A stretch of 64,000 nt of DNA from Eubacteriales bacterium (lineage in GTDB: Bacteria; Bacillota; Clostridia; Lachnospirales; Lachnospiraceae). This document shows, one piece after another, positions 10,882 through 57,494 of the stretch. The stretch lies in contig JAUNOY010000004.1 of assembly GCA_030536995.1 (NCBI GenBank), forward strand, positions 101,145-165,144. Reading direction: 5' to 3'. The notes under the pieces are model-generated. The model was given only the letters and a program-made list of their open reading frames with translations, was not told where the DNA came from and searched no databases. Position 1 is the first letter of the stretch. Each line of letters begins with the position of its first letter. Position numbers and translations under genes: made by a program.

Positions 10882-10947
10882 TTACCTTAATGAGGCGAGC
10901 GTCAGCGAGAAAAGAGACGTGATGCGCAATGTTAGGAGGACAATTAA

Positions 10948-39116: not shown

Positions 39117-39134
39117 TTGTTAAATTGTTATCAA
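39117..39134. promoter_or_regulatory. Rex-like operator 1
   Basis: TTGTTAA-ATTG-TTATCAA differs at one base from the clostridial Rex consensus TTGTTAA-N4-TTAACAA. Rex senses the NADH/NAD+ ratio. It lies about 200 bases before the malate dehydrogenase-like gene in an AT-rich leader. Confidence 0.6.
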
Positions 39135-39259: not shown

Positions 39260-39288
39260 TTGACCAGTATTGTTAAATATTAAACAAT
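39260..39288 (+). promoter_or_regulatory. Possible promoter with Rex-like operator 2 over the -10
   Basis: TTGACC (39260-39265), 17 bases and AACAAT. Across the -10, at 39270-39287, lies TTGTTAA-ATAT-TAAACAA, again one base from the Rex consensus. Binding would occlude the promoter, so NADH build-up should relieve repression of the whole downstream operon. The -10 is poor, so the exact start site is uncertain. Confidence 0.55.
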
Positions 39289-39330: not shown

Positions 39331-40281
39331 ATGAGCAGCAAAATTACTATTATCGGTGCAGGAAGTGTTGGTTCTACAATCGCCTATACTTTATCCAACG
39401 GAGATATCGCATCTGAAATCGTACTCATCGATATTAACAAAGAAAAAGTAGAGGGTGAAGTTCTTGACATTGCCCAGGGTACCTGTTTCCGTGATCCAAT
39501 CTCTATTACAGCAGGAGAATATGAAGATGCGAAAGGTTCTGACATCGTAATCATCACCTCCGGAATTGCCCGTAAACCGGGACAGACCCGTATTGAGCTT
39601 ACTCAGACGAATGTAAATATTCTGAAGTCTATCACTCCTGAGATTGTTAAGGCGGCGCCTGACGCTCTTTATGTTATAGTAAGCAATCCGGTTGACATTA
39701 TGACATATGTATTTACCAAGATTTCCGGACTGCCGGAAAACCAGATTATCGGTTCCGGTACAATTCTTGATTCTGCACGCCTTCGCTGCGGTCTTTCCGA
39801 GCATTTTAAAGTGGCGCAGAAGAATATTCATGCCTATGTATTCGGTGAGCACGGAGACACTTCTTTTGTTCCGTGGTCAGGCGCATATATTTCAGGTGTG
39901 AGCGTTGACGAATATTATCAGCATGCCAAATTAATGGGTAAAGATGTGAAAGAACTTGACAAAGACGGTATGCTGGAATATGTTCGCAAATCAGGCGGTA
40001 AAATTATTCAGAATAAAGGCGCTACTTTCTATGCTGTTTCCAATTCTGTATGTAAGCTTTGCTCTATTCTTCTGGCAGCGTCCGACTCTATCACAACGGT
40101 ATCTTCTATGATGCACGGTGAATACGGAATCGAGGACGTATGTTTAAGCACACTGACTCTTGTAGGCCCTAACGGTGTACAGGGAAAGATTCCAATGCGT
40201 ATGAATAAGACAGAGATCGAACTTCTGAAGAAGAGCGCGGAGGCTTTAAAAGAAGTTATCGCACAGATTGATCTGAACTAA
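39331..40281 (+). CDS. mdh: Malate dehydrogenase on a lactate-dehydrogenase-type scaffold
   Basis: This 316-residue NAD-dependent 2-hydroxyacid dehydrogenase has GAGSVGSTIAYTL for NAD and IGEHGDT-like FGEHGDTSFVPW with the catalytic His. Overall it resembles LDH (IGSGTILDSARLRCGLSE, KGATFYAV). But the specificity position, Gln in LDH (GxxQKPG), is Arg81 in SGIARKPGQTR, the residue that marks malate dehydrogenases and that alone switches an LDH toward oxaloacetate. It leads an operon with fumarase and fumarate reductase downstream, which favours oxaloacetate-to-malate. Start ATG 39331 follows AAAGGAG. L-lactate dehydrogenase remains possible. Confidence 0.8.
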   Translation: MSSKITIIGAGSVGSTIAYTLSNGDIASEIVLIDINKEKVEGEVLDIAQGTCFRDPISITAGEYEDAKGSDIVIITSGIARKPGQTRIELTQTNVNILKSITPEIVKAAPDALYVIVSNPVDIMTYVFTKISGLPENQIIGSGTILDSARLRCGLSEHFKVAQKNIHAYVFGEHGDTSFVPWSGAYISGVSVDEYYQHAKLMGKDVKELDKDGMLEYVRKSGGKIIQNKGATFYAVSNSVCKLCSILLAASDSITTVSSMMHGEYGIEDVCLSTLTLVGPNGVQGKIPMRMNKTEIELLKKSAEALKEVIAQIDLN

Positions 40282-40300
40282 AGAAAGGACAACGGAAAAT

Positions 40301-41098
40301 ATGAAATACAGTTATTATCCGGGCTGTACCCTGAGAACAAAAGCCAGGGATTTGGACGAATATGCCAGAGCAAGTGCACTGGCGCTTGGTTTTGAACTGG
40401 AAGAAATTGAAGACTGGCAGTGCTGCGGCGGTGTTTATCCGCTGGGAACCGATGAGATTGCTACGAAGCTTTCCTCTGTCCGTACCTTAAATGCAGCCAA
40501 AGAAAAGGGTCAGGATCTTGTGACGATCTGTTCTGCCTGTCATCACGTGATCAAACGTGTCAACGATGATATGAGACATGTGGATGATATTCGTACCAGA
40601 GCCAATAACTACATGAAGTTAGAAGAGCCTTATGCCGGAGAGACAAATGTTCTCCACTATTTAGAGGTGTTAAGAGACCGCGTAGGATTTGATAAGTTAA
40701 AAGAAAAAGTAGTAAATCCTTTAAAGGGTAAAAAAATCGGCGCATATTACGGCTGTCTTCTTTTAAGACCGGGAAAAATCATGGCTTTTGACGATCCGGA
40801 AAATCCGAAGATTATGGAAGATTTTATCCGTGCATTGGGTGCGGAGCCGGTAATCTACCCTTATAGAAATGAATGCTGCGGCGGTTACATTTCCCTGAAA
40901 GAGAAACAAATGGCGCAGAATATGTGTGAAAAGATTATGGACAGTGCAAAGGGCTTTGAGGCAGATATGCTGATCACTGCCTGTCCACTTTGCAAATACA
41001 ACCTTTGCAGAAACGGAAACAACAGCATTCCGGTTTACTATTTTACAGAGCTTCTTGCTGAGGCTCTCGGGGTAAAAGAAACAAAGGAGGAGGCATAA
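40301..41098 (+). CDS. hdrB: HdrB-like heterodisulfide reductase subunit
   Basis: This 265-residue protein has two complete CCG domains, each binding a non-cubane [4Fe-4S] cluster. The cysteines are C9, C41-C42, C77, C80, and C152, C192-C193, C228, C231. In methanogens HdrB reduces the CoM-CoB disulfide; here, without coenzyme M, it should pass electrons from HdrA and HdrC to another acceptor. It stands 19 bases after mdh and one base before hdrC. No membrane segment is seen. All ten ligand cysteines are present, so the active site looks functional. Confidence 0.93.
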   Translation: MKYSYYPGCTLRTKARDLDEYARASALALGFELEEIEDWQCCGGVYPLGTDEIATKLSSVRTLNAAKEKGQDLVTICSACHHVIKRVNDDMRHVDDIRTRANNYMKLEEPYAGETNVLHYLEVLRDRVGFDKLKEKVVNPLKGKKIGAYYGCLLLRPGKIMAFDDPENPKIMEDFIRALGAEPVIYPYRNECCGGYISLKEKQMAQNMCEKIMDSAKGFEADMLITACPLCKYNLCRNGNNSIPVYYFTELLAEALGVKETKEEA

Positions 41099-41099
41099 G

Positions 41100-41498
41100 A
41101 TGGAAGTTAAAATGAACGGAAAAAAAGCAGCAGAGCAAATCAAAGAAATTTCCGGTACAAACCCTCTGAAATGTATGAAATGTGGAAAATGTTCCGCAAC
41201 CTGCCCTTCCTATAATGAGATGGATATTAAACCACACCAGTTTGTATCCTATGTGATCAACGAAGATATTGATGCGCTTGTAAATTCCAAATCTCTGTGG
41301 AAATGTCTTTCCTGCTTTGCCTGTGTGGAGAGATGTCCAAGAGATGTAAAACCGGGAAAACTGATTGACGCTGCAAGACAGCTGGTGGTTCGCCAGAAAG
41401 GCGGAAATTACCTTTTGGCAGACGAAATTCCGGAGCTTCTTGATCCGGAGCTTCCACAGCAGCTTTTAGTAAGTGCATTGAGAAGATACAGGAGGTAA
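41100..41498 (+). CDS. hdrC: HdrC-like iron-sulfur subunit
   Basis: This 132-residue protein has two [4Fe-4S] motifs, C25/C28/C31/C35 (KCMKCGKCSATCPSYN) and C69/C72/C75/C79 (CLSCFACVERCP). HdrC relays electrons between HdrA and HdrB in the cytosolic complex. The C-terminus is basic. It has an AGGAGG ribosome site and tight spacing to both neighbours, so the three hdr genes are one translational block. Confidence 0.93.
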   Translation: MEVKMNGKKAAEQIKEISGTNPLKCMKCGKCSATCPSYNEMDIKPHQFVSYVINEDIDALVNSKSLWKCLSCFACVERCPRDVKPGKLIDAARQLVVRQKGGNYLLADEIPELLDPELPQQLLVSALRRYRR

Positions 41499-41503
41499 CC
41501 CAA

Positions 41504-43492
41504 GTGCAGAGGATAGGAGTATTTGTCTGTCACTGCGGAAGTAATATTGCCGCTACGGTAGACGTAAAGAAAGTAGTAGAAATTGCTGCAAAAGAACCCG
41601 GAGTCGTTCATGCAGAAGACTACCAGTATATGTGTTCTGAGGCAGGACAGGCTAAAATTCAGGAAGCCATTAAAGAGAAAAACCTCACAGGAATCGTTGT
41701 CTGTTCCTGTTCCCCGCGTATGCATGAGGCTACCTTCCGTAAAGCTGCAGAAAGAGCCGGCCTGAACCCATACATGGTGGAAATCGCAAATATCCGTGAG
41801 CACTGCTCCTGGATTCATAAAGATATGGAAGAGGCTACCGAAAAAGCGGTTATTCTTGCAAGAGCCGCAATTGCAAAGGTTCATCTGAATGCGCCTCTTC
41901 AGCCTGGCGAAAGCCGTGTCACAAAGAGAGCGCTTGTAATCGGCGGTGGTATTGCCGGTATTCAGACTGCTCTTGACATCGCAGACGCAGGCTATGAAGT
42001 AGACATCGTGGAAAAAACACCGAGTATCGGCGGAAGAATGTCTCAGCTTGACAAAACCTTCCCGACTCTTGACTGTTCCGCATGTATCCTTACACCAAAG
42101 ATGGTGGAGGCAGCTTCCCATGAAAAGATTACAATCTATACTTACAGTGAGGTAGATAAGGTAAGCGGCTTTGTGGGAGATTTTACAGTAGATATCAAGA
42201 AAAAAGCGAGAAGTATTGATATAGATAAATGTACAGGCTGTGGCGCCTGCATGGAGAAATGTCCTTCCAAGAAGACACCAAGCGAATTTAACAGAGGCTT
42301 AAACAACAGAACAGCCATCTACACACCGTTTGCTCAGGCAATCCCGAATGTGCCGGTAATCGATCGCGATGCATGTATCAAGTTTAAAACAGGTAAATGC
42401 GGTCTGTGTGAAAAAGTCTGTCAGGCGGGCGCTATCGATTACACTCAGAAGGATGAAATCGTATCACAGAAATATGGAGCTATCGTAGTGGCAACAGGTT
42501 TTGATACGATTAAGCTTGATAAATACGATGAATATGCATACAACCAGAGCAAGGATGTCATTACATCCTTAGAGCTTGAGCGTATTATGAATGCTGCCGG
42601 TCCTACAAAAGGTCATTTAGAGCGTCTTTCCGACGGAAAAGCTCCAAAGGAAATGGTATTTATCCAGTGTGTGGGAAGCCGTTGTGCCGATGACAGAGGC
42701 AAGCCATACTGTTCAAAGATCTGCTGTATGTACACAGCAAAACATGCAATGCTCATCCGCGACAAATATCCGGATGTGAATGTTACGGTATTTTATATTG
42801 ATGTGCGTACCCCGGGTAAAAACTTTGACGAGTTTTACCGTCGTGCCGTAGAGCAGTACGGGGTTAATTATATTAAGGGTCAGGTTGGAAAAGTTATTCC
42901 TCAGCCAAACGGCAAGCTGTTAGTACAGGGATCAGACCTTCTTGACAACAAACAGATTCTGAAAGAGGCAGACATGGTTGTTCTTGCAACTGCAATTGAG
43001 CCGAACCCGGATGTTCGTAAGATTGCCACCATGCTTACTGCCAGCATTGATACCAATAACTTCCTTACAGAGGCTCACGCGAAGCTTCGTCCTGTAGAAT
43101 CTCCGACAGCCGGTATTTTCCTTTCCGGTGTGTGTCAGGGACCGAAGGATATTCCGGAGACAGTTGCCCAGGCAGGTGCAGCAGCAGTAAAAGCAATCGG
43201 CCTTCTTGCCAAGGATAAGCTGATGACGAATCCGTGTACAGCGAAATCCGATGAGCTTCTCTGCAATGGTTGTTCCGCATGTGCGAATGTATGTCCATAC
43301 GGTGCAATTTCCTATGAAACAAAGGAAGTAAACGATCACGGTATCCGTGAAACAAGAAGAATTGCAGTTGTAAATACAGCCCTTTGTCAGGGATGCGGTG
43401 CTTGTACCGTTACCTGTCCGTCCGGTGCTATGGATCTGCAGGGCTTCTCTAACAGACAGATTTTAGCGGAGGTAGATGCAATATGTCGATAG
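41504..43492 (+). CDS. hdrA: HdrA, flavin-containing (bifurcating-type) subunit
   Basis: This full-length HdrA has 662 residues. The N-terminal segment has VCHCGSNI, and the FAD-binding Rossmann motif is ALVIGGGIAGIQTALDIADA (about 144-162), followed by PSIGGRMSQLDKTFPTLDC. A [4Fe-4S] motif (CTGCGACMEKCP, from C243) and CGLCEKVC near 299-306 interrupt the thioredoxin-reductase-like domain. The C-terminal ferredoxin has CNGCSACANVCP from C587 and CQGCGACTVTCP from C628. In known complexes this FAD splits an electron pair between HdrBC and ferredoxin. The start is GTG after AGGAGG. It overlaps the next gene by ten bases. Confidence 0.95.
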   Translation: MQRIGVFVCHCGSNIAATVDVKKVVEIAAKEPGVVHAEDYQYMCSEAGQAKIQEAIKEKNLTGIVVCSCSPRMHEATFRKAAERAGLNPYMVEIANIREHCSWIHKDMEEATEKAVILARAAIAKVHLNAPLQPGESRVTKRALVIGGGIAGIQTALDIADAGYEVDIVEKTPSIGGRMSQLDKTFPTLDCSACILTPKMVEAASHEKITIYTYSEVDKVSGFVGDFTVDIKKKARSIDIDKCTGCGACMEKCPSKKTPSEFNRGLNNRTAIYTPFAQAIPNVPVIDRDACIKFKTGKCGLCEKVCQAGAIDYTQKDEIVSQKYGAIVVATGFDTIKLDKYDEYAYNQSKDVITSLELERIMNAAGPTKGHLERLSDGKAPKEMVFIQCVGSRCADDRGKPYCSKICCMYTAKHAMLIRDKYPDVNVTVFYIDVRTPGKNFDEFYRRAVEQYGVNYIKGQVGKVIPQPNGKLLVQGSDLLDNKQILKEADMVVLATAIEPNPDVRKIATMLTASIDTNNFLTEAHAKLRPVESPTAGIFLSGVCQGPKDIPETVAQAGAAAVKAIGLLAKDKLMTNPCTAKSDELLCNGCSACANVCPYGAISYETKEVNDHGIRETRRIAVVNTALCQGCGACTVTCPSGAMDLQGFSNRQILAEVDAICR

Positions 43493-43926
43493 AAAACAAG
43501 GAAGAATTCAGACCGAAGATCGTAGCGTTCTGCTGTAACTGGTGCAGCTACGCAGGTGCAGACCTTGCAGGAAGCAGCCGTCTTTCTTACCCGGCTGATG
43601 TGAAGATCATCCGTGTTCCATGTTCCTGCCGTGTGAATCCTATGTTTATCCTCCGTGCTTTTGAAAAAGGTGCTGATGGTGTAATCATGTGTGGATGTCA
43701 CCCGGGCGACTGTCATTACAGCACCGGTAACTATTATGCAAGAAGACGTATGACGCTTCTTTTCTCCATGCTGGATTACCTCGGCGTTGAGAACGGCAGA
43801 ACAAGAGTAGAGTGGGTTTCTGCAGCTGAGGGTGTGAAATTCTCTCAGACAATGAATGAATTTGTAGAAAAAATTCACTCCCTTGGCAAAAACGTAAGAT
43901 TGGGGGATTTAAGATGCAGGAATTAA
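43483..43926 (+). CDS. flxD: MvhD/FlxD-like [2Fe-2S] electron-transfer subunit
   Basis: This 147-residue protein begins IVAFCCNWCSYAGAD, the MvhD signature, with further cysteines in RVPCSCRVNP and CGCHPGDCHY. MvhD joins a hydrogenase, or in FlxABCD-HdrABC an NADH-oxidising module, to HdrA. No hydrogenase large or small subunit gene is in this operon, while flavin and Fe-S genes resembling FlxA to FlxC follow. It overlaps hdrA by ten bases and the next gene by 13. Confidence 0.92.
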   Translation: MSIENKEEFRPKIVAFCCNWCSYAGADLAGSSRLSYPADVKIIRVPCSCRVNPMFILRAFEKGADGVIMCGCHPGDCHYSTGNYYARRRMTLLFSMLDYLGVENGRTRVEWVSAAEGVKFSQTMNEFVEKIHSLGKNVRLGDLRCRN

Positions 43927-44888
43927 TGAATCGTGCAAAAGAGCTTCTGGCAGACGGAACAGTAGCCCGTGTTCTCGGCTGGAAGGCCGGAGACTTATCT
44001 TACAATCCGGAGCCGGCATTTTTTGAGACAGAAGAATCCCTGAAGGATTTCGTTTATAACGGTTTCTGCGGGGCAAATTTAAGCAAATATATGATCGCAG
44101 CGTCTAAGTTTGAGGGAAAGACTCTGATATGTCTTAAACCCTGTGATACATATAGCTTTAATCAGCTGATTAAAGAACACCGCGTTGACAGAGAGAAAGC
44201 ATATATTATCGGTGTCGGCTGCAAAGGTAAGCTTGATATCGAAAAGATCCGTCAGCAGGGTATCAAAGGTATTGAGAGTATTTCCGGAGCTGAGATTGAG
44301 GATGAGGCAGAGACTCTGACAATCCAGACAATCTATGGCGAAAAGACCTGTGCATACAAAGATGTCATGCTGGAGAGATGTCATGTATGTAAAGGAAAAG
44401 AGCATATGATTTATGACGAGCTTATCGGCGAGTCCAAAGATACAAAGGATGCAGACCGTTTTGCCGAGATTGAGAATATCGAGGCTATGAGTCCTGAAGA
44501 AAAGTTTGCATTTTTCCAGAAGGAATTAAGCAAATGTATCCGCTGTAATGCCTGCAGAAATGTCTGTCCGGCCTGCAGTTGCCGTAAATGTGTTTTTGAC
44601 AGTGATAAGTTTGACAGTTCCCAGAAGGCAAATGTGGATTCCTTTGAGGAAAAAATGTTCCACGTAATCCGTGCGTTCCACGTTGCCGGAAGATGTACAG
44701 ACTGCGGCGAGTGCAGCAGAGTATGTCCGCAGGGCATTCCGCTTCACCTTTTCAATCGTAAGTTTATTAAAGACATTAATGAGTTCTACGGCGAATATCA
44801 GGCAGGGGAAGACACAGATTCCAAAGGCCCTCTTACAAACTTTGACTTCGAAGATGTCGAGCCTGGTATAGTAGCAGAAAGGGGATAA
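43914..44888 (+). CDS. FlxC-like iron-sulfur protein
   Basis: This 324-residue cytosolic protein has an N-terminal half with the CoF420-hydrogenase beta/AsrA flavour (LICLKPCDTYSFNQLIKEH, YIIGVGCKGKLDIEK, a possible CHVC site). Its C-terminal half has two [4Fe-4S] motifs, CIRCNACRNVCPACSCRKC and CTDCGECSRVCPQGIP. Extra cysteines (CSCRKC) hint at a further cluster. Position between an flxD and an flxB-like gene makes it the FlxC equivalent. It probably extends the wire from the NADH flavin to HdrA or to ferredoxin. Confidence 0.82.
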   Translation: MQELMNRAKELLADGTVARVLGWKAGDLSYNPEPAFFETEESLKDFVYNGFCGANLSKYMIAASKFEGKTLICLKPCDTYSFNQLIKEHRVDREKAYIIGVGCKGKLDIEKIRQQGIKGIESISGAEIEDEAETLTIQTIYGEKTCAYKDVMLERCHVCKGKEHMIYDELIGESKDTKDADRFAEIENIEAMSPEEKFAFFQKELSKCIRCNACRNVCPACSCRKCVFDSDKFDSSQKANVDSFEEKMFHVIRAFHVAGRCTDCGECSRVCPQGIPLHLFNRKFIKDINEFYGEYQAGEDTDSKGPLTNFDFEDVEPGIVAERG

Positions 44889-44891
44889 TGT

Positions 44892-45923
44892 ATGTTTAAA
44901 ATAAAAGCAGAAAATCTGCCGGCATTATTCCGTAAAATTGCCGCAGAGCAGGAATTATATTTACCGGTGAAGGAAGCAGGTCAGGTGAACTTTGCTGCAT
45001 GGAGCGAAAATGCAGAGGTTTCCCTTGACACCTTAAAAACCGTAAAATCACCAAAAGATGCGTTTTTCCCACAGAGTGAAAATCTTTACAGCTGTGTGAA
45101 GGACGGTAAAAAGATTTCAATCGAACCGGGCGCATTAAAAGAGCAGAATTTCGTGCTTTTCGGCATGAAAGCCTGTGATATTCAGGGCGTTAAGGTTCTT
45201 GACAATGTATTCTTAAGCGAGCCTGTAGATACGTTTTACGCTGCAAGACGCGACCATGGCACAATTGTTGCCCTTGCCTGTCACGAACCGGAAGAAAGCT
45301 GTTTCTGTAAGGTTTTTGGTATTGACTGTGCAGATCCTGTGGCTGATGTTGCTGCATGGATGATCGAAGGTGAGTTATACTGGAAAGCTCTTTCCGAAAA
45401 AGGAGAGGCTCTTACCGCAATTGTAAAAGAGCTTCTCACAGATGCTGATGAGGCAAAGGTGGAAGAGGAAAAACAGGTAATCCGCACAATCGTGGACAAG
45501 CTTCCATACTCCAATCTTTCTTTAGAGGGATGGGGAGAGGAAGACTACATGGAGAGATTTAATTCTTCTGTGTGGGAAGAACTTTATAAACCGTGTCTGG
45601 CATGCGGAACCTGTACTTTTGTATGCCCGACCTGTCAGTGTTATGACATTAAAGATTACGATACAGGACATGGAGTACAGCGTTATCGCTGCTGGGATTC
45701 CTGTATGTATTCCGATTTTACTATGATGGCACACGGAAATAACCGTAACAGCCAGATGCAGCGTTTCCGTCAGAGATTTATGCACAAGCTTGTTTACTAT
45801 CCTGTAAATAATAACGGCATGTTCTCCTGTGTAGGATGCGGCCGCTGTGTGGAAAAATGCCCGTCAGCCTTAAATATTGTAAAAGTAATCAAAGCATTTG
45901 AAAAACAGGGAGGTGAAAACTGA
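44892..45923 (+). CDS. FlxB/AsrA-like iron-sulfur protein
   Basis: This 343-residue protein is related to anaerobic sulfite reductase subunit A and hydrogenase beta-type proteins. It has LFGMKACDIQGVKVLDNVF and ALACHEPEESCFC in the N-terminal half, and two [4Fe-4S] motifs, CLACGTCTFVCPTCQCYDI and CVGCGRCVEKCPSALN, in the C-terminal half. Subunits of this type partner directly with the FAD/NAD(P)H-binding AsrB-like protein, which is the very next gene and overlaps by one base. No sulfite reductase (AsrC) is present, which excludes a complete asr operon. Confidence 0.87.
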   Translation: MFKIKAENLPALFRKIAAEQELYLPVKEAGQVNFAAWSENAEVSLDTLKTVKSPKDAFFPQSENLYSCVKDGKKISIEPGALKEQNFVLFGMKACDIQGVKVLDNVFLSEPVDTFYAARRDHGTIVALACHEPEESCFCKVFGIDCADPVADVAAWMIEGELYWKALSEKGEALTAIVKELLTDADEAKVEEEKQVIRTIVDKLPYSNLSLEGWGEEDYMERFNSSVWEELYKPCLACGTCTFVCPTCQCYDIKDYDTGHGVQRYRCWDSCMYSDFTMMAHGNNRNSQMQRFRQRFMHKLVYYPVNNNGMFSCVGCGRCVEKCPSALNIVKVIKAFEKQGGEN

Positions 45924-46807
45924 TGTGCGAACATAATCACGAACATGGACATGACCATGAATGTACCTGTCATAAAGACTATAAATTAGACACTCTGATC
46001 CCAATGGTGGGTGTGATCACCGATATCAGAGAGGAGACACCGGATGTAAAAACTTTCCGTGTAAATGCTCCGGAGGGGGGCAAGCTTTTTGAACATATGC
46101 CCGGCCAGTGTGCCATGCTGTGTGCTCCCGGTGTAAGTGAGGGTATGTTTTCCATCACTTCTTCACCTACAAATAAAGAATATCAGGAATTCAGTATTAA
46201 GAAATGCGGTATGCTCACAGATTATCTCCACAGCCTTGAGGTAGGAGATGAGATTACAGTCCGCGGTCCATACGGAAATCATTTCCCGGTAGAGGAGGAG
46301 TTAAAGGGTAAAAATCTTCTCTTTATCGCAGGTGGTATCGGTCTTGCGCCTCTTCGCTCCGTAATCAACTATGTACTTGATAATCGTGAAAATTATGGTA
46401 CTGTTGATATTCTTTACGGTTCCCGTTCCGCAGATGACCTGGTACAGTTAAAGGAAATTCAGGAAGTCTGGATGAAAACAGAGGGTGTGAATGTATACCT
46501 TACTATCGACCGTGAACAGGAGGGCTGGGACGGCCACGTGGGCTTTGTTCCGTCTTACTTAAAGGAAATCGGCTTTGACACCAACAAGACAGCTCTTGTT
46601 TGCGGACCGCCGATTATGATTAAATTTGTACTTGCAGGCTTAGAGGAGCTGGGCTTCTCCAGAGAGCAGGTATACACCACATTAGAGCTCAGAATGAAGT
46701 GTGGCGTAGGCAAATGCGGCCGCTGCAACATTGGCTCCAAATATGTATGTAAAGATGGTCCTGTATTCCGCTGCGACGAGATCGACGAATTACCGGCGGA
46801 GTATTAA
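45923..46807 (+). CDS. FlxA/AsrB-like FAD and NAD(P)H-binding subunit with His-rich N-terminus
   Basis: This 294-residue ferredoxin-reductase-fold protein is the likely entry point for NADH electrons. An FAD-binding barrel is seen (MFSITSSPTNKEYQEFSIKK, VRGPYGNHFP), the NAD domain starts LLFIAGGIGLAPLRSVINY, and CGPPIMIKF follows. A C-terminal [2Fe-2S] site is spaced CGVGKCGRCNIGSKYVC. The first 17 residues are exceptional: Cys2, 14 and 16 and His4, 6, 8, 10, 12 and 17 could bind a metal. The start is set by TGATG overlap with the previous stop. Confidence 0.9.
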   Translation: MCEHNHEHGHDHECTCHKDYKLDTLIPMVGVITDIREETPDVKTFRVNAPEGGKLFEHMPGQCAMLCAPGVSEGMFSITSSPTNKEYQEFSIKKCGMLTDYLHSLEVGDEITVRGPYGNHFPVEEELKGKNLLFIAGGIGLAPLRSVINYVLDNRENYGTVDILYGSRSADDLVQLKEIQEVWMKTEGVNVYLTIDREQEGWDGHVGFVPSYLKEIGFDTNKTALVCGPPIMIKFVLAGLEELGFSREQVYTTLELRMKCGVGKCGRCNIGSKYVCKDGPVFRCDEIDELPAEY

Positions 46808-46833
46808 TTTCAGTATTGAGAGGAAAATAAACA

Positions 46834-47508
46834 ATGGAAAAAATGGTTAATGTATATTTTTTCGGTAAAAAATACAGCGTACCTGCAGAGCTCACCATTA
46901 TGACAGCCATGGAATACGCTGGCTACACTCTTAAAAGAGGATGTGGCTGCCGTCATGGTTTCTGTGGAGCCTGTGCCACTATTTACAGAATCAAGGGTCA
47001 GAATGAGTTGAAGACATGTCTTGCCTGTCAGACACAGGTTCAGGAGGGAATGTATGTGGCAAGTATTCCTTTCTTCCCGACAGATAAGAGAACATATGAC
47101 ATCAACGAGATTAAACCGAACCAGCAGATTATGATGGAGCTTTATCCGGAAATTTACAGCTGTATCGGCTGTAACGCATGTACAAAAGCCTGTACACAGG
47201 ATTTGAATGTTATGCAGTACATCGCATACGCACAGCGCGGTGAGTTTGAAAAATGTGCAGAAGAATCTTTCGACTGTGTAGGCTGCGGCTGCTGTTCCGT
47301 AAGATGTCCGGCAGAGATTTCCCATCCGATGGTTGGTCTTCTGGCAAGACGTCTCACCGGTAAATACATCGCTCCAAAGTCTGAGCACCTTGAGAAACGA
47401 GTAGAAGAGATTAACAACGGTGCATACGACGAGCTTATCGAGCAGATCATGCAGAAACCGATCACAGAGATGCAGGAACTTTACAATAACAGGGATATTG
47501 AGAAATAA
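46834..47508 (+). CDS. frdB: Fumarate reductase iron-sulfur subunit
   Basis: This 224-residue protein is shorter than usual FrdB/SdhB (about 240). The N-terminal plant-ferredoxin-like part holds the [2Fe-2S] ligands in RGCGCRHGFCGACATIY and CLACQTQV. The C-terminal part has CIGCNACTKACTQD and CVGCGCCSVRCPAEISHP for two further clusters. It lacks the CCG domain found in methanogen thiol:fumarate reductase TfrB; the separate HdrB in this operon may supply that function. It would wire FrdA to the Hdr-Flx complex. No membrane anchor genes accompany it. Confidence 0.88.
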   Translation: MEKMVNVYFFGKKYSVPAELTIMTAMEYAGYTLKRGCGCRHGFCGACATIYRIKGQNELKTCLACQTQVQEGMYVASIPFFPTDKRTYDINEIKPNQQIMMELYPEIYSCIGCNACTKACTQDLNVMQYIAYAQRGEFEKCAEESFDCVGCGCCSVRCPAEISHPMVGLLARRLTGKYIAPKSEHLEKRVEEINNGAYDELIEQIMQKPITEMQELYNNRDIEK

Positions 47509-47519
47509 GGAGGGCAATC

Positions 47520-49130
47520 ATGTATACACCATATCCAGAAAATATGATGGAATCTATCAAAAAGGTAGAGGCTACAAGAGCAGAACGTATGGCGACAGAG
47601 CCGGCACGTCTTTCTGCGGAAGAAAAAGATGCACTCCTGAAAGAATTCCACCCAGATTATAATCCGGATGCTTTTGCTGAGATTAAAGTTGGACCAAACA
47701 AAGGAGAAAAGGCTCCTCTGGAACTGGCTCACCTTCTTCATTCCACAAGCCGCATCCAGAATGAAAATATTGACCTTTCAAAGGTAGACTACGATGTAGA
47801 TGTGCTTGTTATCGGCGGCGGCGGTGCAGGTTCCTCCTGTGCTATTGAAGCTCATAATGCAGGTGCAAATGTTATGATCGTGACAAAGCTTCGTATCGGT
47901 GATGCCAACACTATGATGGCAGAAGGCGGTATTCAGGCAGCAGATAAAGAAAACGACTCTCCGGTACAGCATTATCTTGACTGCTTCGGCGGCGGACATT
48001 TCGCAGGAAGACCGGAACTGGTAAGACGTCTTGTAATGGAAGCTCCGGATGCAATTAAATGGCTCAATGAGCTTGGCGTTGAGTTTGACAAAGAAGAAGA
48101 CGGAAATATGATCACGACTCACGGCGGCGGTACTTCCAGAAAGAGAATGCATGCTGCAAAGGACTATTCCGGTGCTGAGATTATGCGTACCATCCGCGAT
48201 GAGGTGATTAACCGCGGTATTCCTGTTGTGGAATTCACTTCTGCAGTTGAGCTTATTAAAGATGAAAAAGGTCAGGTGGCAGGTGCTGTTCTCCAGAATA
48301 TGGAAACAGGGGACTACCTTGTGGCAAGAGCAAAAACTGTTGTAATCGCTACAGGTGGTGCAGGAAGAATGCATTATCAGGGCTTCCCGACATCTAACCA
48401 TTACGGCGCAACAGCAGACGGTCTTGTTCTTGGATACCGTGCAGGTGCACCGCTTCTTTACCAGGATTCTATTCAGTATCATCCGACAGGAGCTGTTTAT
48501 CCGGCACAGATTCTTGGAGCTCTTGTTACAGAGAAGGTTCGTTCTGTTGGTGCACAGCTTGTTAACGCGGAAGGTAAAGCATATATCCATCCGCTGGAAA
48601 CACGTGACGTTAACGCTTCCGGTGTAATCCGTGAATGTCGTGAAGGCAGAGGTGTAGAGGTTCCGGGCGGACTTAAAGGCGTATGGCTGGATACTCCGAT
48701 GATTGAGATTCTCGGAGGAGAAGGTACCATTGAAAAGAGAATTCCGGCAATGTTCCGTATGTACATGAACTATGGCATTGATATGAGAAAAGTGCCGATT
48801 CTTATTTATCCTACTCTTCATTATCAGAACGGTGGTATTGAAATCAATGGAGAAGGTTTTACAAAAACAATTCCAAACCTTCTTGTTGCAGGTGAGGCAG
48901 TAGGAGGAATCCACGGAAGAAACCGTCTTATGGGTAACTCCCTTCTGGATATTATTGTATTTGGTCGTAATGCAGGTAAGGCTGCAGCTGCAAAAGCAAA
49001 AGAGACAGAGATTGGTTCTATGAATCTTGACCATATTTACAAATATGCAGAGGAATTAAAGGCGGCAGATGCAGATGAGCATGATATTTCTCCAATGCTG
49101 CTTCCTAATTATGCCCGTCACGAAAGATAA
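47520..49130 (+). CDS. frdA: Fumarate reductase flavoprotein subunit (soluble type)
   Basis: At 536 residues it is shorter than membrane-type FrdA (about 580-600). FAD motif: VLVIGGGGAGSSCAIEAHNA. The covalent-FAD histidine of classic FrdA (SHTVAA) is replaced in DANTMMAEGGIQAA, so flavin is non-covalent. Substrate-site motifs are kept: THGGGTSRKRMHA, IQYHPTGAV, TRDVNASG, LHYQNGGIEI and GNSLLDIIVFGRNAG. L-aspartate oxidase is a relative, but no nad genes are nearby and frdB is adjacent. It should reduce fumarate to succinate in the cytosol. AAGGAGGG precedes the ATG. Confidence 0.9.
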   Translation: MYTPYPENMMESIKKVEATRAERMATEPARLSAEEKDALLKEFHPDYNPDAFAEIKVGPNKGEKAPLELAHLLHSTSRIQNENIDLSKVDYDVDVLVIGGGGAGSSCAIEAHNAGANVMIVTKLRIGDANTMMAEGGIQAADKENDSPVQHYLDCFGGGHFAGRPELVRRLVMEAPDAIKWLNELGVEFDKEEDGNMITTHGGGTSRKRMHAAKDYSGAEIMRTIRDEVINRGIPVVEFTSAVELIKDEKGQVAGAVLQNMETGDYLVARAKTVVIATGGAGRMHYQGFPTSNHYGATADGLVLGYRAGAPLLYQDSIQYHPTGAVYPAQILGALVTEKVRSVGAQLVNAEGKAYIHPLETRDVNASGVIRECREGRGVEVPGGLKGVWLDTPMIEILGGEGTIEKRIPAMFRMYMNYGIDMRKVPILIYPTLHYQNGGIEINGEGFTKTIPNLLVAGEAVGGIHGRNRLMGNSLLDIIVFGRNAGKAAAAKAKETEIGSMNLDHIYKYAEELKAADADEHDISPMLLPNYARHER

Positions 49131-49148
49131 AAGTTTATAATAAATGGA

Positions 49149-49203
49149 AAAGCAGTCTTGCCTGATCATTTCCTCCGGAATGGTTGACAGGTTGGGCTGC
49201 TTT
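49149..49203 (+). other. Hairpin overlapping the fumarase promoter
   Basis: AAAGCAG pairs with CTGCTTT, and CATTTCC inside pairs with GGAATG. It starts 18 bases after frdA and has no T-run. It could be a partial terminator that lets part of the transcription into fumarase. Confidence 0.4.
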
Positions 49204-49211
49204 GCTATAAT
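49184..49211 (+). promoter_or_regulatory. Promoter of the fumarase genes
   Basis: A consensus TTGACA and consensus TATAAT with a 16-base spacer, 68 bases before the fumA start. It gives fumarase expression separate from the hdr-flx-frd operon. Confidence 0.8.
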
Positions 49212-49279
49212 GAAAGAAATGACAAAACAAGTCTTTGTTTTGATTTCAATTAACAATACTCACAGGAGGAGAGAAAGCA

Positions 49280-50122
49280 ATGCGTGAAATTGAAGTAAGC
49301 AGACTTACAGATGTAATTGAAAAGCTCTGTATCGAAGCAAACAATCATCTTCCGGAAGATGTAAAATGCGCGATCAAAAATTGCCGTGCATGTGAAGATG
49401 GAGAAATTGCCAGAGGCGTTCTCGACAACATTATCGAAAACTTTGAAATCGCAGATAATGAAAACGTTCCGATCTGCCAGGATACCGGTATGGCATGTGT
49501 GTTCCTTGAGATTGGACAGGATGTTCACTTTGTAGGAGGCGACTATACAGAGGCGATTAACGAGGGTGTTCGCCGTGGCTATGATAAGGGCTATTTACGT
49601 AAATCCGTAGTGAAAGACCCGGTTCGCCGCGGAAATACAGGAGACAATACTCCAGCTATGATTTATACAGAAATCGTTCCGGGAGATCAGGTTAAGGTTA
49701 CAGTTGGACCGAAAGGCTTCGGCAGTGAGAATATGAGCCAGATCCGTATGTTTAAACCATCTGCAGGTCTTCAGGGAATCAAGGATTTTATTCTGGAAGC
49801 AGTAGAGACAGCCGGTCCTAACCCATGTCCTCCAATGGTAGTAGGCGTAGGTATCGGGGGTACTTTTGACAAATGTGCGCTTCTTGCAAAAAAAGCGCTT
49901 ATGCGTCCTCTGGATTCTCAGAATCCGGACCCGTTCTATGCAGATCTTGAAAAAGAAATGCTGGAAAAAATCAATGAGCTGGGCATCGGACCGCAAGGCT
50001 TCGGCGGTAAGACGACTGCCATTGGGCTGAACATCGAAACACTGCCTACTCACATTGCAGGTATGCCATGTGCAGTAAATATCAACTGCCATGTTACCCG
50101 TCATAAATCGGAGGTGATTTAA
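49280..50122 (+). CDS. fumA: Class I fumarate hydratase, alpha subunit
   Basis: This 280-residue catalytic subunit of the oxygen-sensitive [4Fe-4S] fumarase interconverts malate and fumarate. Cluster and substrate motifs: ICQDTGMACVFLEIG, RRGNTGDNTPAMIYTEIVPG, GPKGFGSENMSQIRMFKP, PNPCPPMVVGVGIGGTFDKC and GIGPQGFGGKTTAIGLNIE. The three cluster cysteines are visible. Tartrate dehydratase alpha is a close relative, but the malate/fumarate context favours fumarase. It joins fumB with no gap, and an AGGAGGAG ribosome site precedes it. Confidence 0.93.
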   Translation: MREIEVSRLTDVIEKLCIEANNHLPEDVKCAIKNCRACEDGEIARGVLDNIIENFEIADNENVPICQDTGMACVFLEIGQDVHFVGGDYTEAINEGVRRGYDKGYLRKSVVKDPVRRGNTGDNTPAMIYTEIVPGDQVKVTVGPKGFGSENMSQIRMFKPSAGLQGIKDFILEAVETAGPNPCPPMVVGVGIGGTFDKCALLAKKALMRPLDSQNPDPFYADLEKEMLEKINELGIGPQGFGGKTTAIGLNIETLPTHIAGMPCAVNINCHVTRHKSEVI

Positions 50123-50686
50123 ATGGAAAAACGTCGTATTACACTGCCTCTTACAGAGGAACTGGCACGCAGCCTTCATGCAGGTGATCAGGTATTGTTA
50201 ACAGGAAACATTTATACTTCCCGTGATGCGGGACATAAGAGAATGTGTGAAGCACTTGCAAAAGGCGAAGAGATTCCTTTTGATCCAAAGGATGCTACCA
50301 TTTACTATGTGGGACCGACTCCGGCTAAGCCGGGCGCTGTAATCGGTTCAGCAGGTCCTACAACAAGCGGACGCATGGATGCTTATGCACCGACTATGAT
50401 GTCTGTAGGTGCAAGAGGAATGATTGGAAAAGGTGCCCGCCTTCCTGAAGTTGTGGATGCTATGAAGAAATACAGTGGTGTTTATTTTGGCGCTATCGGC
50501 GGTGCAGGCGCACTCCTTGCAAAATGTATCAAAAAAGCTGAGCTTATTGCATATGAAGATTTGGGAGCAGAGGCTCTTCGTAAGCTGTATGTAGAGGATA
50601 TGCCTCTTGTTGTTATTATTGACAGTGAGGGAAAGAATCTTTACGAAGACGGACGTGCAGCTTATCTTGCACAGAAGAATGTATAA
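50123..50686 (+). CDS. fumB: Class I fumarate hydratase, beta subunit
   Basis: This 187-residue partner of the alpha subunit, together with it, equals one FumA-type chain. Motifs: LHAGDQVLLTGNIYTSRDAG (start of the swivel domain), YVGPTPAKPG, IGSAGPTTSGRMDAY, MIGKGARLPEVV and FGAIGGAGALLAKCI. It begins directly after the alpha stop with GGAGGTG within the alpha gene's end as the ribosome site. Confidence 0.93.
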   Translation: MEKRRITLPLTEELARSLHAGDQVLLTGNIYTSRDAGHKRMCEALAKGEEIPFDPKDATIYYVGPTPAKPGAVIGSAGPTTSGRMDAYAPTMMSVGARGMIGKGARLPEVVDAMKKYSGVYFGAIGGAGALLAKCIKKAELIAYEDLGAEALRKLYVEDMPLVVIIDSEGKNLYEDGRAAYLAQKNV

Positions 50687-50692
50687 GTGCAG

Positions 50693-51379
50693 ATGAAAGG
50701 ATTAAGAGAGTATCATTCTCACGGACAGATGTCGGAGGCTTTTCTGACAGCAGCCTTTCTTTCTTTGTCCGGAGGTTTGCAGGATGCTTATACCTACGCC
50801 TTCAGAGGCGGTGTATTTGCCAATGCCCAGACTGGAAATATCGTTTTGCTCAGTCAGAATCTTTTTGAGAAAAACTGGGGACTGGCTTTGCGGTATTTTA
50901 TTCCTGTATTTTCCTTTGTTCTGGGAGTTGCCATTGCAGAGTGGATCCGACAGTCTTACAGTAATATAGACAGTTTTCACTGGAGACAGCTGGTTGTATT
51001 AAGTGAGGTCATACTGTTATTTATTGTAGGTTTTCTGCCTCAAAGCATGAATATGCTGGCAAACGCTATGGTTTCTTTTTCCTGTGCCATGCAGGTACAG
51101 GCATTCCGTAAGGTTACAGGTTATGCTTTTTCCAGTACCATGTGTATCGGAAATGTTCGAAGTGCCATGGAATCTCTTTATACCTTCTGCAGAAAGCGAG
51201 AGCCTAAGATGCTGAAAAAAACTCTTCGCTACTGGGAGATTATTATTCTTTTTGCTCTTGGAGCAGGTCTCGGAGGCCATTTTTCAGCAGTATTCGGGGC
51301 AAAGACCATATGGTTTTCCTGTGCTCTTTTGCTGATCAGCTTTTTCCTGATGTTTATCAGGGAAGAAGAGGAAAAATAA
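50693..51379 (+). CDS. YoaK/DUF1275-family membrane protein
   Basis: This protein has 228 residues from the ATG at 50693 (a GTG at 50687 adds two). Six hydrophobic segments are visible. The family signature is LSGGLQDAYTYAFRGGVFAN followed by AQTGNIVLLS. Function is unknown; the family is sometimes linked to transport. It follows fumB almost without gap and has no clear ribosome site of its own, so it probably depends on coupled translation. The role in fumarate metabolism, if any, might be dicarboxylate movement, but nothing in the sequence shows that. Confidence 0.85.
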   Translation: MKGLREYHSHGQMSEAFLTAAFLSLSGGLQDAYTYAFRGGVFANAQTGNIVLLSQNLFEKNWGLALRYFIPVFSFVLGVAIAEWIRQSYSNIDSFHWRQLVVLSEVILLFIVGFLPQSMNMLANAMVSFSCAMQVQAFRKVTGYAFSSTMCIGNVRSAMESLYTFCRKREPKMLKKTLRYWEIIILFALGAGLGGHFSAVFGAKTIWFSCALLLISFFLMFIREEEEK

Positions 51380-51389
51380 AAATAGTTAT

Positions 51390-51436
51390 AAAAATACCCT
51401 TTGTTTATCTTGAAATTGATGACAAAGGGTATTTTT
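51390..51436. terminator. Bidirectional terminator
   Basis: AAAAATACCCTTTGT pairs perfectly over 15 bases with ACAAAGGGTATTTTT. A- and T-runs on both sides let it end transcripts from either direction. It lies between convergent genes. Confidence 0.92.
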
Positions 51437-51448
51437 GTTATATGATGA

Positions 51449-52954
51449 TTATTTCAGTTCAATCTCTTCAAGCTCCTTTGGGGGAAGCTTTTTAGAGGAA
51501 TTGGAAACATACTGTTTCAGAGCTTTGGAAGCTTTGTTGTACGGAGCATTTGTTCCGGCACCGCCCATACAGCCTCCCGGGCAGGCCATACCTTCGATCA
51601 TACATCCTTTCAGTTTTCCTGCTTTGGCGAGAGTCAGGACTTTTTTACATTCTGCAAGTCCTTCTGCGTGTTCAATGTGAACAGGAACATCCGGATAGTA
51701 CTCGTTGAGACAGGCTGCAACGGCACCTGCAACACCACCGGAAACTGCATATCCACGACCGGCAGCAGTAGCGTTGTGGAAGGAGGTGGAAGGTTCGATT
51801 TCCTCAGGATCGATGCCTTTGGCATCAAACAGTCCCCACAGCTCTTCGTAAGTAATAACGAAATCAACATCGCTTCGCACAGTAGTTCTCATGGCCTCCA
51901 GTTTTTTGGAAGCGCAAGGTCCTATGAAGACGATTTTGGCGTTTTGGTGTTCTTTTTTTATGCTTCGTGCAGTGGCAACCATCGGAGTGAGCTCCTGAGA
52001 GATATTGTCAATCATATCAGGAAACTGATTTTTGGCCATCATAGACCAGGATGGACAGCAGGAGGTGAGAAGGAAAGGAAGATTTCCTGTAGCAACTTCT
52101 TTGGCATAGTGGTGAGCCTCTGCAATGGCTCCGATGTCTGCGCCCAGAGCAACCTCATATACATTGCTGAAGCCAAGCGCTGATAAAGCTGCATGGAATT
52201 TCGCAGGGGTTACCTTGTCTCCAAACTGACTGATGTAAGCCGGCGCGATTTCGGCAATAATTTCCACACCTTCACGAAGGGCATGAGCCAGCTGGAAAAT
52301 CTGGGATTTGTCGGAGATGGCTCCAAATGGGCAGCTTACCATACACATACCGCAGGAAACGCATTTTTCCTGATCGATCATAGCTCTTCCCTGTTCGTCG
52401 CTTTTGATTGCTTTTACACCGCAGGCGCGTTCACAGGGACGTTCTTTGTGGGCGATGGCATCGTAAGGACAGACTGCTTTACATTTTCCGCATTTGATAC
52501 ATTTGGACTGGTCAATGTAAGATTTGCCGTTTACCATGGAAATTGCACCTTTGGGGCAGATCTGCATACAAGGGTGAGCCACACAGCCTTTGCACATATT
52601 GCTGACTTCGTACTTATTGGGCGCGCAGGCTGCACATGCAGAAGGAATAACCTGCATAAGCGGCGGCTCATAGTATTTCTCATCAATATTACTTGCTTCC
52701 ACACCTGCTGTCAGATGGACAGCTTTATTTTCGGGACGAAGTGAAAGTCCCATTGCAAGACGGACACGTTCGCTTGCAACAGCTCTTTCGCGGTAAATGC
52801 TTTCACGGTATTTGGCGCGTTCTTCCACAATCTCATAAGGGATTTCCTCAATATCATGAATCAAAGTTTCATCAGTGGAATGAAAGCCAAGCTTGGCAAT
52901 TTCTGTAAAAATTTTTCGGCGAATCTGCTTCACCGGAGTATCAAGACCTCTCAT
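51449..52954 (-). CDS. [FeFe] hydrogenase, group-B-like, with N-terminal ferredoxin domains
   Basis: This 501-residue protein has the N-terminal cysteine-rich region CAACAPNKYEVSNMCKGC, typical of the group B enzymes. Ferredoxin motifs CIKCGKCKAVCPYDAI and CVSCGMCMVSCPFGAI follow. The H-cluster domain has TSCCPSW (L1), GPCASKK (L2, where group A has MPCxxK) and EGMACPGGCMGGAG (L3), giving all four H-cluster cysteines. No NADH-binding subunits accompany it, so it probably exchanges electrons with ferredoxin. I start at the ATG whose complement is 52952-52954, preceded by AAGGAG. The gene is divergent from hydCBA. Confidence 0.92.
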   Translation of the reverse strand: MRGLDTPVKQIRRKIFTEIAKLGFHSTDETLIHDIEEIPYEIVEERAKYRESIYRERAVASERVRLAMGLSLRPENKAVHLTAGVEASNIDEKYYEPPLMQVIPSACAACAPNKYEVSNMCKGCVAHPCMQICPKGAISMVNGKSYIDQSKCIKCGKCKAVCPYDAIAHKERPCERACGVKAIKSDEQGRAMIDQEKCVSCGMCMVSCPFGAISDKSQIFQLAHALREGVEIIAEIAPAYISQFGDKVTPAKFHAALSALGFSNVYEVALGADIGAIAEAHHYAKEVATGNLPFLLTSCCPSWSMMAKNQFPDMIDNISQELTPMVATARSIKKEHQNAKIVFIGPCASKKLEAMRTTVRSDVDFVITYEELWGLFDAKGIDPEEIEPSTSFHNATAAGRGYAVSGGVAGAVAACLNEYYPDVPVHIEHAEGLAECKKVLTLAKAGKLKGCMIEGMACPGGCMGGAGTNAPYNKASKALKQYVSNSSKKLPPKELEEIELK

Positions 52955-53348
52955 AACTTCATGTCTCCTTTTTTTTATTTCCGCGCATTGAGGTAACATA
53001 TTCTTTTACATTACCATTGATTATATAATAATGTTATTTTGCCTAAAAATCAATGTGAAATCTTTCCGACAGATGTTCAGAATCAGATACAATTTGTTTT
53101 ATTATTAACAGGATTGTGACAAAAAATGCTTTGTATTTTTATAGATACAATCCTGAAAAACCTCTAAAAACAAAGGTTTTTTCATGGTGTACACTGGTAG
53201 AAAAATGCATGAAAATGTTGCCAAGAGTATTCATATATTGTATAATTAGCACACAGGTTTATGAAAAAAACGTACATAAATTGTATAATTAGCACAACGA
53301 AAAAGCGCGAAAATATCATGTATAACAACATTTTAAGGAGGGAACTGA
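52955..53348. promoter_or_regulatory. Divergent control region between the two hydrogenase operons
   Basis: This is a 394-base AT-rich gap with no gene. At 53218-53246 a promoter TTGCCA, 17 bases, TATAAT faces hydC. The 17-base string ATTGTATAATTAGCACA occurs twice (53237-53253 and 53280-53296), each copy carrying TATAAT. At 53094-53111 TTGTTTT-ATTA-TTAACAG is a three-mismatch Rex-like site. On the minus strand a TATAAT (complement of 53020-53025) may start the group-B hydrogenase transcript. Confidence 0.55.
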
Positions 53349-53828
53349 ATGTTAGACCAGTCTTACTACAAGAAAACAGATGAGATTATCGAGCACTATG
53401 GACGCAAGCCGGCTTCGTTAATCCCCATCATGCAGGACATTCAGGCAGAGTATCGTTATCTGCCGGGAGAGCTTCTTACTTATGTGGCAGCCGAAATAGG
53501 CGTGACAGAGGCAAAGGCTTACAGTGTGGCTACTTTTTACGAGAATTTCTCATTTGAGCCCAAGGGCAAATATGTGATCAAGGTATGTGACGGAACAGCC
53601 TGTCATGTAAGGAAGTCACAGCCTGTAAAAGACGCTCTGATGAAGGAACTTGGATTGAGCAGCAAGAAGCATACAACCGACGATATGCTTTTTACCGTAG
53701 ATACTGTTTCCTGCCTTGGCGCCTGCGGACTTGCGCCGACTCTGATGGTAAACGACGATGTCTATCCGAAGATGACACCTGAGAAAGTGATCGAACTGAT
53801 TGAGAGATTGAGAGGTGAAAATGCATGA
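53349..53828 (+). CDS. hydC: NADH-linked bifurcating hydrogenase subunit HydC (NuoE-like)
   Basis: This 159-residue protein has the thioredoxin-like [2Fe-2S] fold. The four ligands are in VCDGTACHVRKS (C-x4-C) and VSCLGACGLAP (C-x3-C). An N-terminal helical part (PASLIPIMQDIQAEYRYLP) is as in NuoE. It is the smallest subunit of the trimeric enzyme that couples NADH and reduced ferredoxin oxidation to H2 formation, or the reverse. AAGGAGGG precedes the ATG, and the stop overlaps hydB by four bases. Confidence 0.94.
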   Translation: MLDQSYYKKTDEIIEHYGRKPASLIPIMQDIQAEYRYLPGELLTYVAAEIGVTEAKAYSVATFYENFSFEPKGKYVIKVCDGTACHVRKSQPVKDALMKELGLSSKKHTTDDMLFTVDTVSCLGACGLAPTLMVNDDVYPKMTPEKVIELIERLRGENA

Positions 53829-55696: not shown

Positions 55697-55711
55697 AAGG
55701 GAGGACATATT

Positions 55712-57400: not shown

Positions 57401-57430
57401 TTCCTTAGTTTACATACGGTATAATTAAAT

Positions 57431-57494
57431 GCCTCCCTGCATAGGGTATAATAATACATTGTGTTATTTCATACCTGTGCAAGGAGGCTTTTTT
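57431..57494 (+). terminator. Terminator whose 3' arm holds the spoIVA ribosome site
   Basis: GCCTCC pairs with GGAGGC, and inside TGCA/TGCA, GGTAT/ATACC and ATAA/TTAT add to a long stem. Six Ts run straight to the spoIVA ATG. AAGGAGG (57481-57487), the spoIVA ribosome site, lies in the closing arm. GGTATAAT occurs twice nearby (57418-57425 and 57445-57452), which may be promoter -10 elements for spoIVA. Confidence 0.8.

Follow-up and report, generated by a model that had tools for sequence, protein, structure and literature searches.

How a fermenting gut bacterium might dispose of NADH on fumarate without a membrane-bound fumarate reductase, and what else its electrons might reduce, is the question raised by a run of genes ordered mdh-hdrBCA-flxDCBA-frdBA and then fumAB. 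The run lies in a stretch of 64,000 nucleotides (the window, meaning the whole stretch analysed) of contig JAUNOY010000004.1, positions 101,145 to 165,144, from a Eubacteriales bacterium of the Lachnospiraceae (GCA_030536995.1; 2.83 Mb, 40 contigs, genome 92% complete) which appears to belong to the genus of Blautia luti. We consider, with a probability of about 70%, that this operon encodes an NADH-bifurcating fumarate reductase, that is a Flx-Hdr-FrdBA complex in which ferredoxin would be co-reduced and whose expression would be under Rex.

In such an enzyme system, the mdh product would reduce oxaloacetate to malate, and the fumAB fumarase would dehydrate malate to fumarate. A hydride from NADH would be delivered to FlxA, and FlxB, FlxC and FlxD would relay the electrons to the HdrA FAD, where they would be split. 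One would travel by way of HdrC and the HdrB non-cubane clusters to FrdB and on to FrdA, which would convert fumarate to succinate; the other would go to ferredoxin. The net reaction would be 2 NADH + fumarate + oxidised ferredoxin -> 2 NAD+ + succinate + reduced ferredoxin, the reduced ferredoxin then being used by Rnf or hydrogenase, and the NADH-sensing repressor Rex would control the operon. With potentials taken from PMC5861303 and PMC12773636, the computed reaction energy is -33 to -53 kJ/mol under standard conditions, hence bifurcation would be thermodynamically easy. The complex itself, the HdrB-to-FrdB contact, the bifurcation with its stoichiometry and the binding of Rex are the parts that we infer.

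An earlier note on this DNA had described twelve open reading frames, and all of them were found on the plus strand where it had placed them; their families were confirmed with Pfam and NCBIfam profiles, the scanned genes spanning 39331 to 58958. The intergenic gaps are tiny or negative, with overlaps between hdrA and flxD and between flxD and flxC, 26 nucleotides (nt) between flxA and frdB and 11 nt between frdB and frdA, and a ribosome site, AAAGGAG, precedes the mdh ATG at 39331. The scanned genes include none recognisable as an Sdh/Frd-type membrane anchor, and the description of an operon without one thus stands. All seven subunits of FlxABCD-HdrABC are in the one cluster, the Flx names being presumptive and guided by domain matches. 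HdrA is full length, and its best model is HdrA2, with 803 bits under a cut-off of 1100; its residues 3-660 align to solved HdrA and, by eye and within the alignment extent shown, the Cys motifs of the solved bifurcating HdrA are retained.

The co-occurrence of the two parts was surveyed in 291 genomes of the class. A close HdrA (at least 55% identity) and the FrdA family were each found in 40 genomes and both in 39, the FrdA family scoring at least 713 bits (best match per carrier) and every other relative at most 223 bits among matches at E<=1e-60. The two genomes with only one of the pair are both cut by contig ends: in G072 (hdr only) the run breaks off within flxA, in G110 (frd only) it starts within flxC, and the genes left on either contig match those of the operon. 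Hence, the functional link that had been proposed between Hdr-Flx and FrdBA is supported in the class, where hdr-flx does not occur mostly without frdBA and 39 of 41 carriers have both. HdrA and FrdA are encoded on the same contig and strand in 34 of the 39, and in 33 of these hdrA precedes frdA by about 4 kb; the remaining one, G306, has the rearranged order fumAB-frdBA-hdrBCA-flxDCBA, so that the operon parts stay together through rearrangement. In G306 the operon is followed (L133 1915-3621) by a gene which, by eye, resembles that of aldehyde ferredoxin oxidoreductase and may encode a ferredoxin partner. More distant HdrA (39-48% identity) were found in five class genomes, none of them with a family FrdA and four with adjoining flxDCBA; Hdr-Flx-like sets without FrdBA thus exist in the class. 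In G062 (L134 4360-11155), hdrA-flxD adjoins genes which, by eye, encode an FAD protein resembling glycolate/lactate oxidase and two HdrD/GlcF-like proteins with CCG-type motifs; this set without frd looks like another HdrA-coupled oxidase.

Gene order was followed in 80 named loci, those most like the window in FrdA from a set of at least 571. All 61 testable loci keep the nine-gene order (19 are too short upstream); fumAB is at most 1.5 kb away in 61 of 72 loci, and mdh is directly upstream in 39 of 57. The trait is patchy in the genus, being carried by 7 of 24 congeners beyond the window genome, and the operon was found in none of nine sampled genomes from other genera of the same family. 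Among 41 relatives, flxA, frdB and frdA are together in all 10 carriers.

The best model for FrdA is TfrA, at 333 bits with a cut-off of 718, and PF02910, the usual C-terminal domain, was not detected in the Pfam scan, while FrdB stays below the FrdB/SdhB cut-offs (26.9 bits vs 88 for TIGR00384). The two proteins are therefore FrdA- and FrdB-like but represent a divergent branch and not an ordinary FrdAB; an N-terminal extension of ~90 residues is conserved in FrdA. In the alignment of FrdA to solved SDH 7d6v, the fumarate-site columns H321, T337, E338, R341, R362, H434 and R469 are invariant in 80/80 sequences. These active-site residues, together with the linkage to mdh and fumAB, support fumarate as the substrate. 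No other fumarate reductase was found in the window genome (92% complete), the sole further FrdA relative at E<=0.001 being an L-aspartate oxidase. In Sporofaciens musculi, frdA (L057, around 10001-11611) displays several in-frame stops in the family search, which would represent a pseudogene or an assembly error.

The proposed link between FrdA and the Hdr module would run through FrdB and HdrB. The twelve ligand Cys of FrdB are kept in 75/75 sequences, both of its [4Fe-4S] motifs are complete, and the Pfam scan gave no CCG domain match in FrdB. The third centre of canonical FrdB is a [3Fe-4S] cluster, and class E enzymes have a [4Fe-4S] cluster at that centre and a separate CCG subunit. In HdrB, both sets of non-cubane ligand Cys are kept in 63/63 sequences, and the protein scores 140 bits as HdrB and 145 bits as the CCG subunit of 8-methylmenaquinol:fumarate reductase, both far under cut-off. 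Given these near-equal scores and the class E pattern of FrdB, HdrB would be a natural neighbour of FrdB.

The specificity of the first gene was examined at one residue. Its product is above the cut-offs of L-lactate dehydrogenase (LDH) models (TIGR01771, 337.8 vs 303.6; NF000824, 345.8 vs 339) and marginally over that of the malate dehydrogenase (MDH) subfamily model NF004863 (286.3 vs 283). Gln102 against Arg is the one-residue rule separating LDH from MDH specificity. Arg is found at this column in 43/43 operon copies above 50% identity, a count which omits two lower-identity matches, L094 and L100 (L100 also has Arg). The unlinked copies of B. luti and B. schinkii have Arg too, a second, LDH-like gene of another genome (L162) has Gln, and the solved 'LDH' 1y6j also has Arg in the same alignment. 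The Arg fits a malate dehydrogenase, and the operon mdh is predicted to encode one. As reported in PMC12773636, extracts of glucose-grown B. luti had a five-fold higher rate of NADH-dependent reduction with oxaloacetate than with pyruvate (1070 vs 209 mU/mg), the difference being two- to three-fold on the other sugars.

Upstream of mdh, two sites resemble the Clostridiaceae Rex motif TTGTTAAnnnnTTAACAA quoted in PMC9600882; they are the only sites of the window with at most 2 mismatches and both lie just before mdh, at 39117 and 39270. Of 40 mdh-led loci, 27 have a site matching at least 12/14 positions in the 300 nt that precede mdh, compared to control regions before fumA (0/67), frdA (0/74) and flxC (1/65). 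The window genome has one Rex-type domain, and operators at the promoter together with a Rex-type gene point to a Rex regulon, in which Rex would bind at these sites; such control suits an NADH-consuming unit. The Rex-like operators upstream of the operon are new here.

The earlier note had the operon as a single block ending in fumAB. Indeed, fumAB is linked and on the same strand, but the frdA-fumA gap is 149 nt long and holds a perfect sigma-70-like promoter; hence fumAB need not be merely the tail of one transcript and could be expressed separately. Downstream of fumB, a DUF1275 gene was rejected as an operon member, as its whole open reading frame is found in only 9/80 named loci (39-55% identity). 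A hydM-like gene for a monomeric-type [FeFe] hydrogenase (minus strand) and hydCBA (plus strand) lie directly 3' of the operon at 51449-57400, followed after hydA by spoIVA (57429-58961). In locus L048, hydCBA starts ~165 nt downstream of frdA, and hydM and hydABC are close together in B. luti too (PMC12773636). As part of the operon, hydM and hydCBA were rejected as well, being within the flanks (at most 10 kb, often shorter) of only 3/80 named loci.

Table 1. Genes and candidate regulatory sites of the operon, in window coordinates
Feature	Position	Strand	Description
Rex-like operator 1	39117..39134	+	13/14 fixed positions of TTGTTAAnnnnTTAACAA
Rex-like operator 2	39270..39287	+	13/14 fixed positions of TTGTTAAnnnnTTAACAA
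mdh	39331..40281	+	LDH-lineage NAD-dependent dehydrogenase, Arg at LDH Gln102 column; predicted malate dehydrogenase
hdrB	40301..41098	+	two CCG domains, ten non-cubane cluster Cys all present
hdrC	41112..41498	+	two [4Fe-4S] motifs; alternative start at 41100
hdrA	41504..43492	+	FAD/Fe-S subunit, HdrA2-like, solved bifurcating kind; GTG start
flxD	43483..43926	+	MvhD/FlpD family; aligns to C-terminal part of fused HdrA2
flxC	43914..44888	+	Fe-S protein resembling F420-formate dehydrogenase beta subunit
flxB	44892..45923	+	Fe-S protein resembling sulfhydrogenase beta / AsrA
flxA	45923..46807	+	FAD/NAD(H) diaphorase subunit resembling sulfhydrogenase gamma / AsrB
frdB	46834..47508	+	short Fe-S subunit: one [2Fe-2S] and two four-Cys [4Fe-4S] motifs
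frdA	47520..49130	+	fumarate reductase flavoprotein; Asn for FAD-binding His, without PF02910, ~90-residue N-terminal extension
sigma-70-like promoter before fumAB	49184..49211	+	12/12 match, TG ahead of second hexamer
fumA	49280..50122	+	class I fumarase, first part
fumB	50123..50686	+	class I fumarase, C-terminal part

Several observations weigh against a bifurcating fumarate reductase or against parts of the scheme. Outside the class, a phylum survey of 398 genomes gave 38 genomes besides the window's with 39 family loci (a weaker relative, L201, was dropped). FrdBA is accompanied by full Hdr-Flx in 5 loci, by an HdrA-type gene and flxD without flxBA in 11, by hdrC-hdrB only in 4, by fumAB only in 8 and by none of these in 11, matches below 60 bits being ignored except for hdrC and the last classes being upper bounds, as some stretches reach contig ends. 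FrdBA is thus without full Hdr-Flx in 34/39 loci; it does not itself require Hdr-Flx, and strict pairing is a feature of the class and not of FrdBA. Within the class, RnfC (match at E<=1e-40) is rarer in carriers (23/40) than in non-carriers (204/251; Fisher p 0.0017), which leaves 17/40 carriers with no RnfC match and speaks against Rnf as a universal outlet, and ATP-PEPCK is not enriched (10/40 carriers vs 46/251 others, p 0.39). Rnf and PEPCK are therefore not supported as co-occurring partners; the window genome itself has ATP-PEPCK, [FeFe] hydrogenases and RnfC beside Rnf D-, G- and E-like genes (the latter named by eye). As regards Rex, the two sites of the window compare with 0.67 expected and 12/100 shuffles reach two, moderately above chance, and a site of at least 12/14 precedes only 5/20 hdrB-led loci. 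Finally, the Spearman correlation of pairwise identities (53 loci and the window) is 0.15-0.34 between frdA and the other operon genes and 0.42-0.83 among the others, and in the approximately unbiased test the hdrA data reject the frdA grouping (p 0.0028), while the frdA data just fail to reject the hdrA grouping of four loci (p 0.056). The discordant loci are L054-L112 and L048-L052 against the window frdA (47520-49130). Part of the history of frdA could thus be unlike that of hdrA, the two not strictly co-evolving, and frdA alleles may have been exchanged between operons; this is a lead only, since the discordant groups were picked after the identities were known and the loci were selected by FrdA likeness.

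These points bear on the alternatives to different degrees. A soluble NADH:fumarate reductase may be encoded which does not bifurcate, Flx-Hdr passing both NADH electrons to FrdBA and ferredoxin not being reduced; such a design suits the carriers without an RnfC match. A soluble NADH-dependent fumarate reductase exists in Hydrogenobacter thermophilus, reportedly described by Miura in 2008 and said to have five subunits. Furthermore, a plain NADH-dependent fumarate reductase has been considered for B. luti (PMC12773636). However, a plain diaphorase would need no HdrA, and here HdrA is full length with the bifurcation-type Cys motifs noted above and is joined by a split MvhD. In addition, RnfC or [FeFe] hydrogenase is present in 39/40 carriers, although hydrogenase is near-universal (37/40 carriers, 273/291 class genomes); with RnfC rarer in carriers, the ferredoxin outlet seems to vary. 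We regard this plain enzyme as unlikely.

Alternatively, the genes could be co-transcribed for separate functions, Flx-Hdr reducing ferredoxin and a disulfide or thiol protein, and FrdBA being fed by reduced ferredoxin or another carrier. The intact ligand sets of HdrB and the many FrdBA loci outside the class without full Hdr-Flx are in line with this, and so is FlxABCD-HdrABC of Desulfovibrio, which has the same seven components and for which electron transfer from NADH to ferredoxin and a high-potential acceptor is proposed, the acceptor being the DsrC disulfide (PMC4215793, PMC10920352). In contrast, the window genome gave no DsrC match, and DsrC was thus rejected as the Hdr-Flx acceptor here; instead, FrdBA sits inside the same tight gene run, and its pairing with Hdr-Flx in the class fails only at contig ends. 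A separation of functions therefore seems rather improbable. That the complex mainly confurcates, working backwards to oxidise succinate with NAD+ and reduced ferredoxin, is most improbable. FrdBA does lie beside succinyl-CoA synthetase (L206) or CoA transferase (L213) at two loci outside the class, but Asn replaces the covalent-FAD His of SDH in 80/80 FrdA sequences, and in E. coli FrdA the loss of this bond reportedly abolishes succinate oxidation while sparing fumarate reduction. NADH disposal is also what the Rex-like sites and the fermentative setting suggest.

The loci outside the class also bear on how FrdBA might be wired in the bifurcating enzyme. Four of them read hdrC-hdrB-frdB-frdA with no hdrA in the retrieved stretch, which points to a direct HdrB-FrdB link. 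Among 20 neighbours scanned at nine loci, the informative ones encode pyruvate carboxylase (L189), malic enzyme (L213), the succinyl-CoA synthetase of L206, and proteins resembling cytochrome b561 (L199) or NapC (L197), the rest being unrelated or unnamed; with such neighbour sets, FrdBA has the look of a C4-dicarboxylate cassette whose electron input can be exchanged. Tentatively, and at somewhat less than even odds, FrdBA could be a portable soluble fumarate-reducing cassette which docks on varied electron inputs (Flx-Hdr, HdrA-MvhD, HdrBC alone or a cytochrome-type partner) and which in Clostridia, of the gut and elsewhere, is wired to HdrB, the latter acting as a wire and not as a disulfide site; succinate would then be formed in a respiration-like step which conserves energy without a membrane and is switched by Rex. 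At L210 (12535-15744), a gene beside hdrA, flxD and frdBA encodes an HdrA-like protein of 1070 residues which has pyridine-nucleotide oxidoreductase and ferredoxin domains and, judging from these, may serve the same FrdBA as another kind of input module. The second family FrdA of G424 (L195 8848-10850), for which no frdB was found, adjoins DUF4387 and AtuA-like genes and perhaps uses a different substrate.

The idea of such an enzyme is not new, and in this respect the earlier note was overstated. Indeed, NADH bifurcation to ferredoxin and fumarate reduction has already been proposed for the 'succinate operon' of Pseudoclostridium thermosuccinogenes in PMC7282089, which cites a 2019 preprint by Koendjbiharie and van Kranenburg for the proposal. 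As described there, fumarase, a seven-gene Flx-Hdr and a two-gene fumarate reductase are in one operon as in the window, but no mdh is listed, the fumarase is at the other end by locus tag and a possible transporter gene is included; the likeness is one of description, and no Rex site is mentioned in that account, compared to the two Rex-like operators found here. In the same article, CO2 limitation raised the expression of that operon about 4-fold, although not significantly for every subunit, and the authors link the rise to NADH excess. In tubeworm symbionts and Thioflavicoccus, tfrAB is interspersed with flxABCD-hdrABC and the authors suggest a direct complex, but these are reductive TCA autotrophs and korABCD is also within the cluster (PMC6315080). 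In the literature searched, mostly outside subscription journals, no biochemical test of the bifurcating fumarate reductase prediction was found. Methanogen TfrAB, the TfrA of which is the closest model to FrdA, has a TfrB that carries its own CCG domain, whereas here it is the separate HdrB that carries CCG and the fused arrangement is absent. Overall, the operon is real and conserved, and it is a well-supported member of a kind which has been predicted but, judging by the literature searched, not proven.

B. luti (L038) and B. schinkii (L039) both carry the operon, and B. schinkii has no further FrdA-family match at E<=1e-10 except an L-aspartate oxidase. The probable placing of the window in the genus of B. 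luti rests on a congeneric genome, G016, the FrdA-family matches of which occupy the contig positions seen in the B. luti genome of L038. B. luti (G016, L165) has in addition a second, sdhC-sdhA-sdhB set of the Bacillus subtilis kind (sdhC and sdhB named by eye). This membrane SdhCAB shares the FAD domain and catalytic residues with FrdA at 30% identity, but unlike FrdBA it has PF02910 and an adjoining membrane-protein gene, named by eye; membrane-type SdhA was found neither in the window genome (92% complete) nor in B. schinkii. Fumarate reductase activity of B. luti was measured with reduced viologen (PMC12773636), and as operon and membrane SdhCAB are both present, neither this activity nor the frdAB transcript is assignable to one enzyme. 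The words 'hdr' and 'flx' are absent from the main text of that article, which presents the B. luti energy model.

If the operon does encode an NADH-bifurcating fumarate reductase, the succinate of many gut Clostridia would be coupled to ferredoxin reduction. Where Rnf is present, this would yield ~2 H+ per succinate, equal to 0.56 ATP by our own arithmetic (2 H+/2e- and 3.6 H+/ATP as in PMC12773636), and the published energy balance of B. luti (PMC12773636) would need revision. The predicted bifurcating fumarate reductase thereby becomes testable in cultured gut commensals of the genus Blautia.

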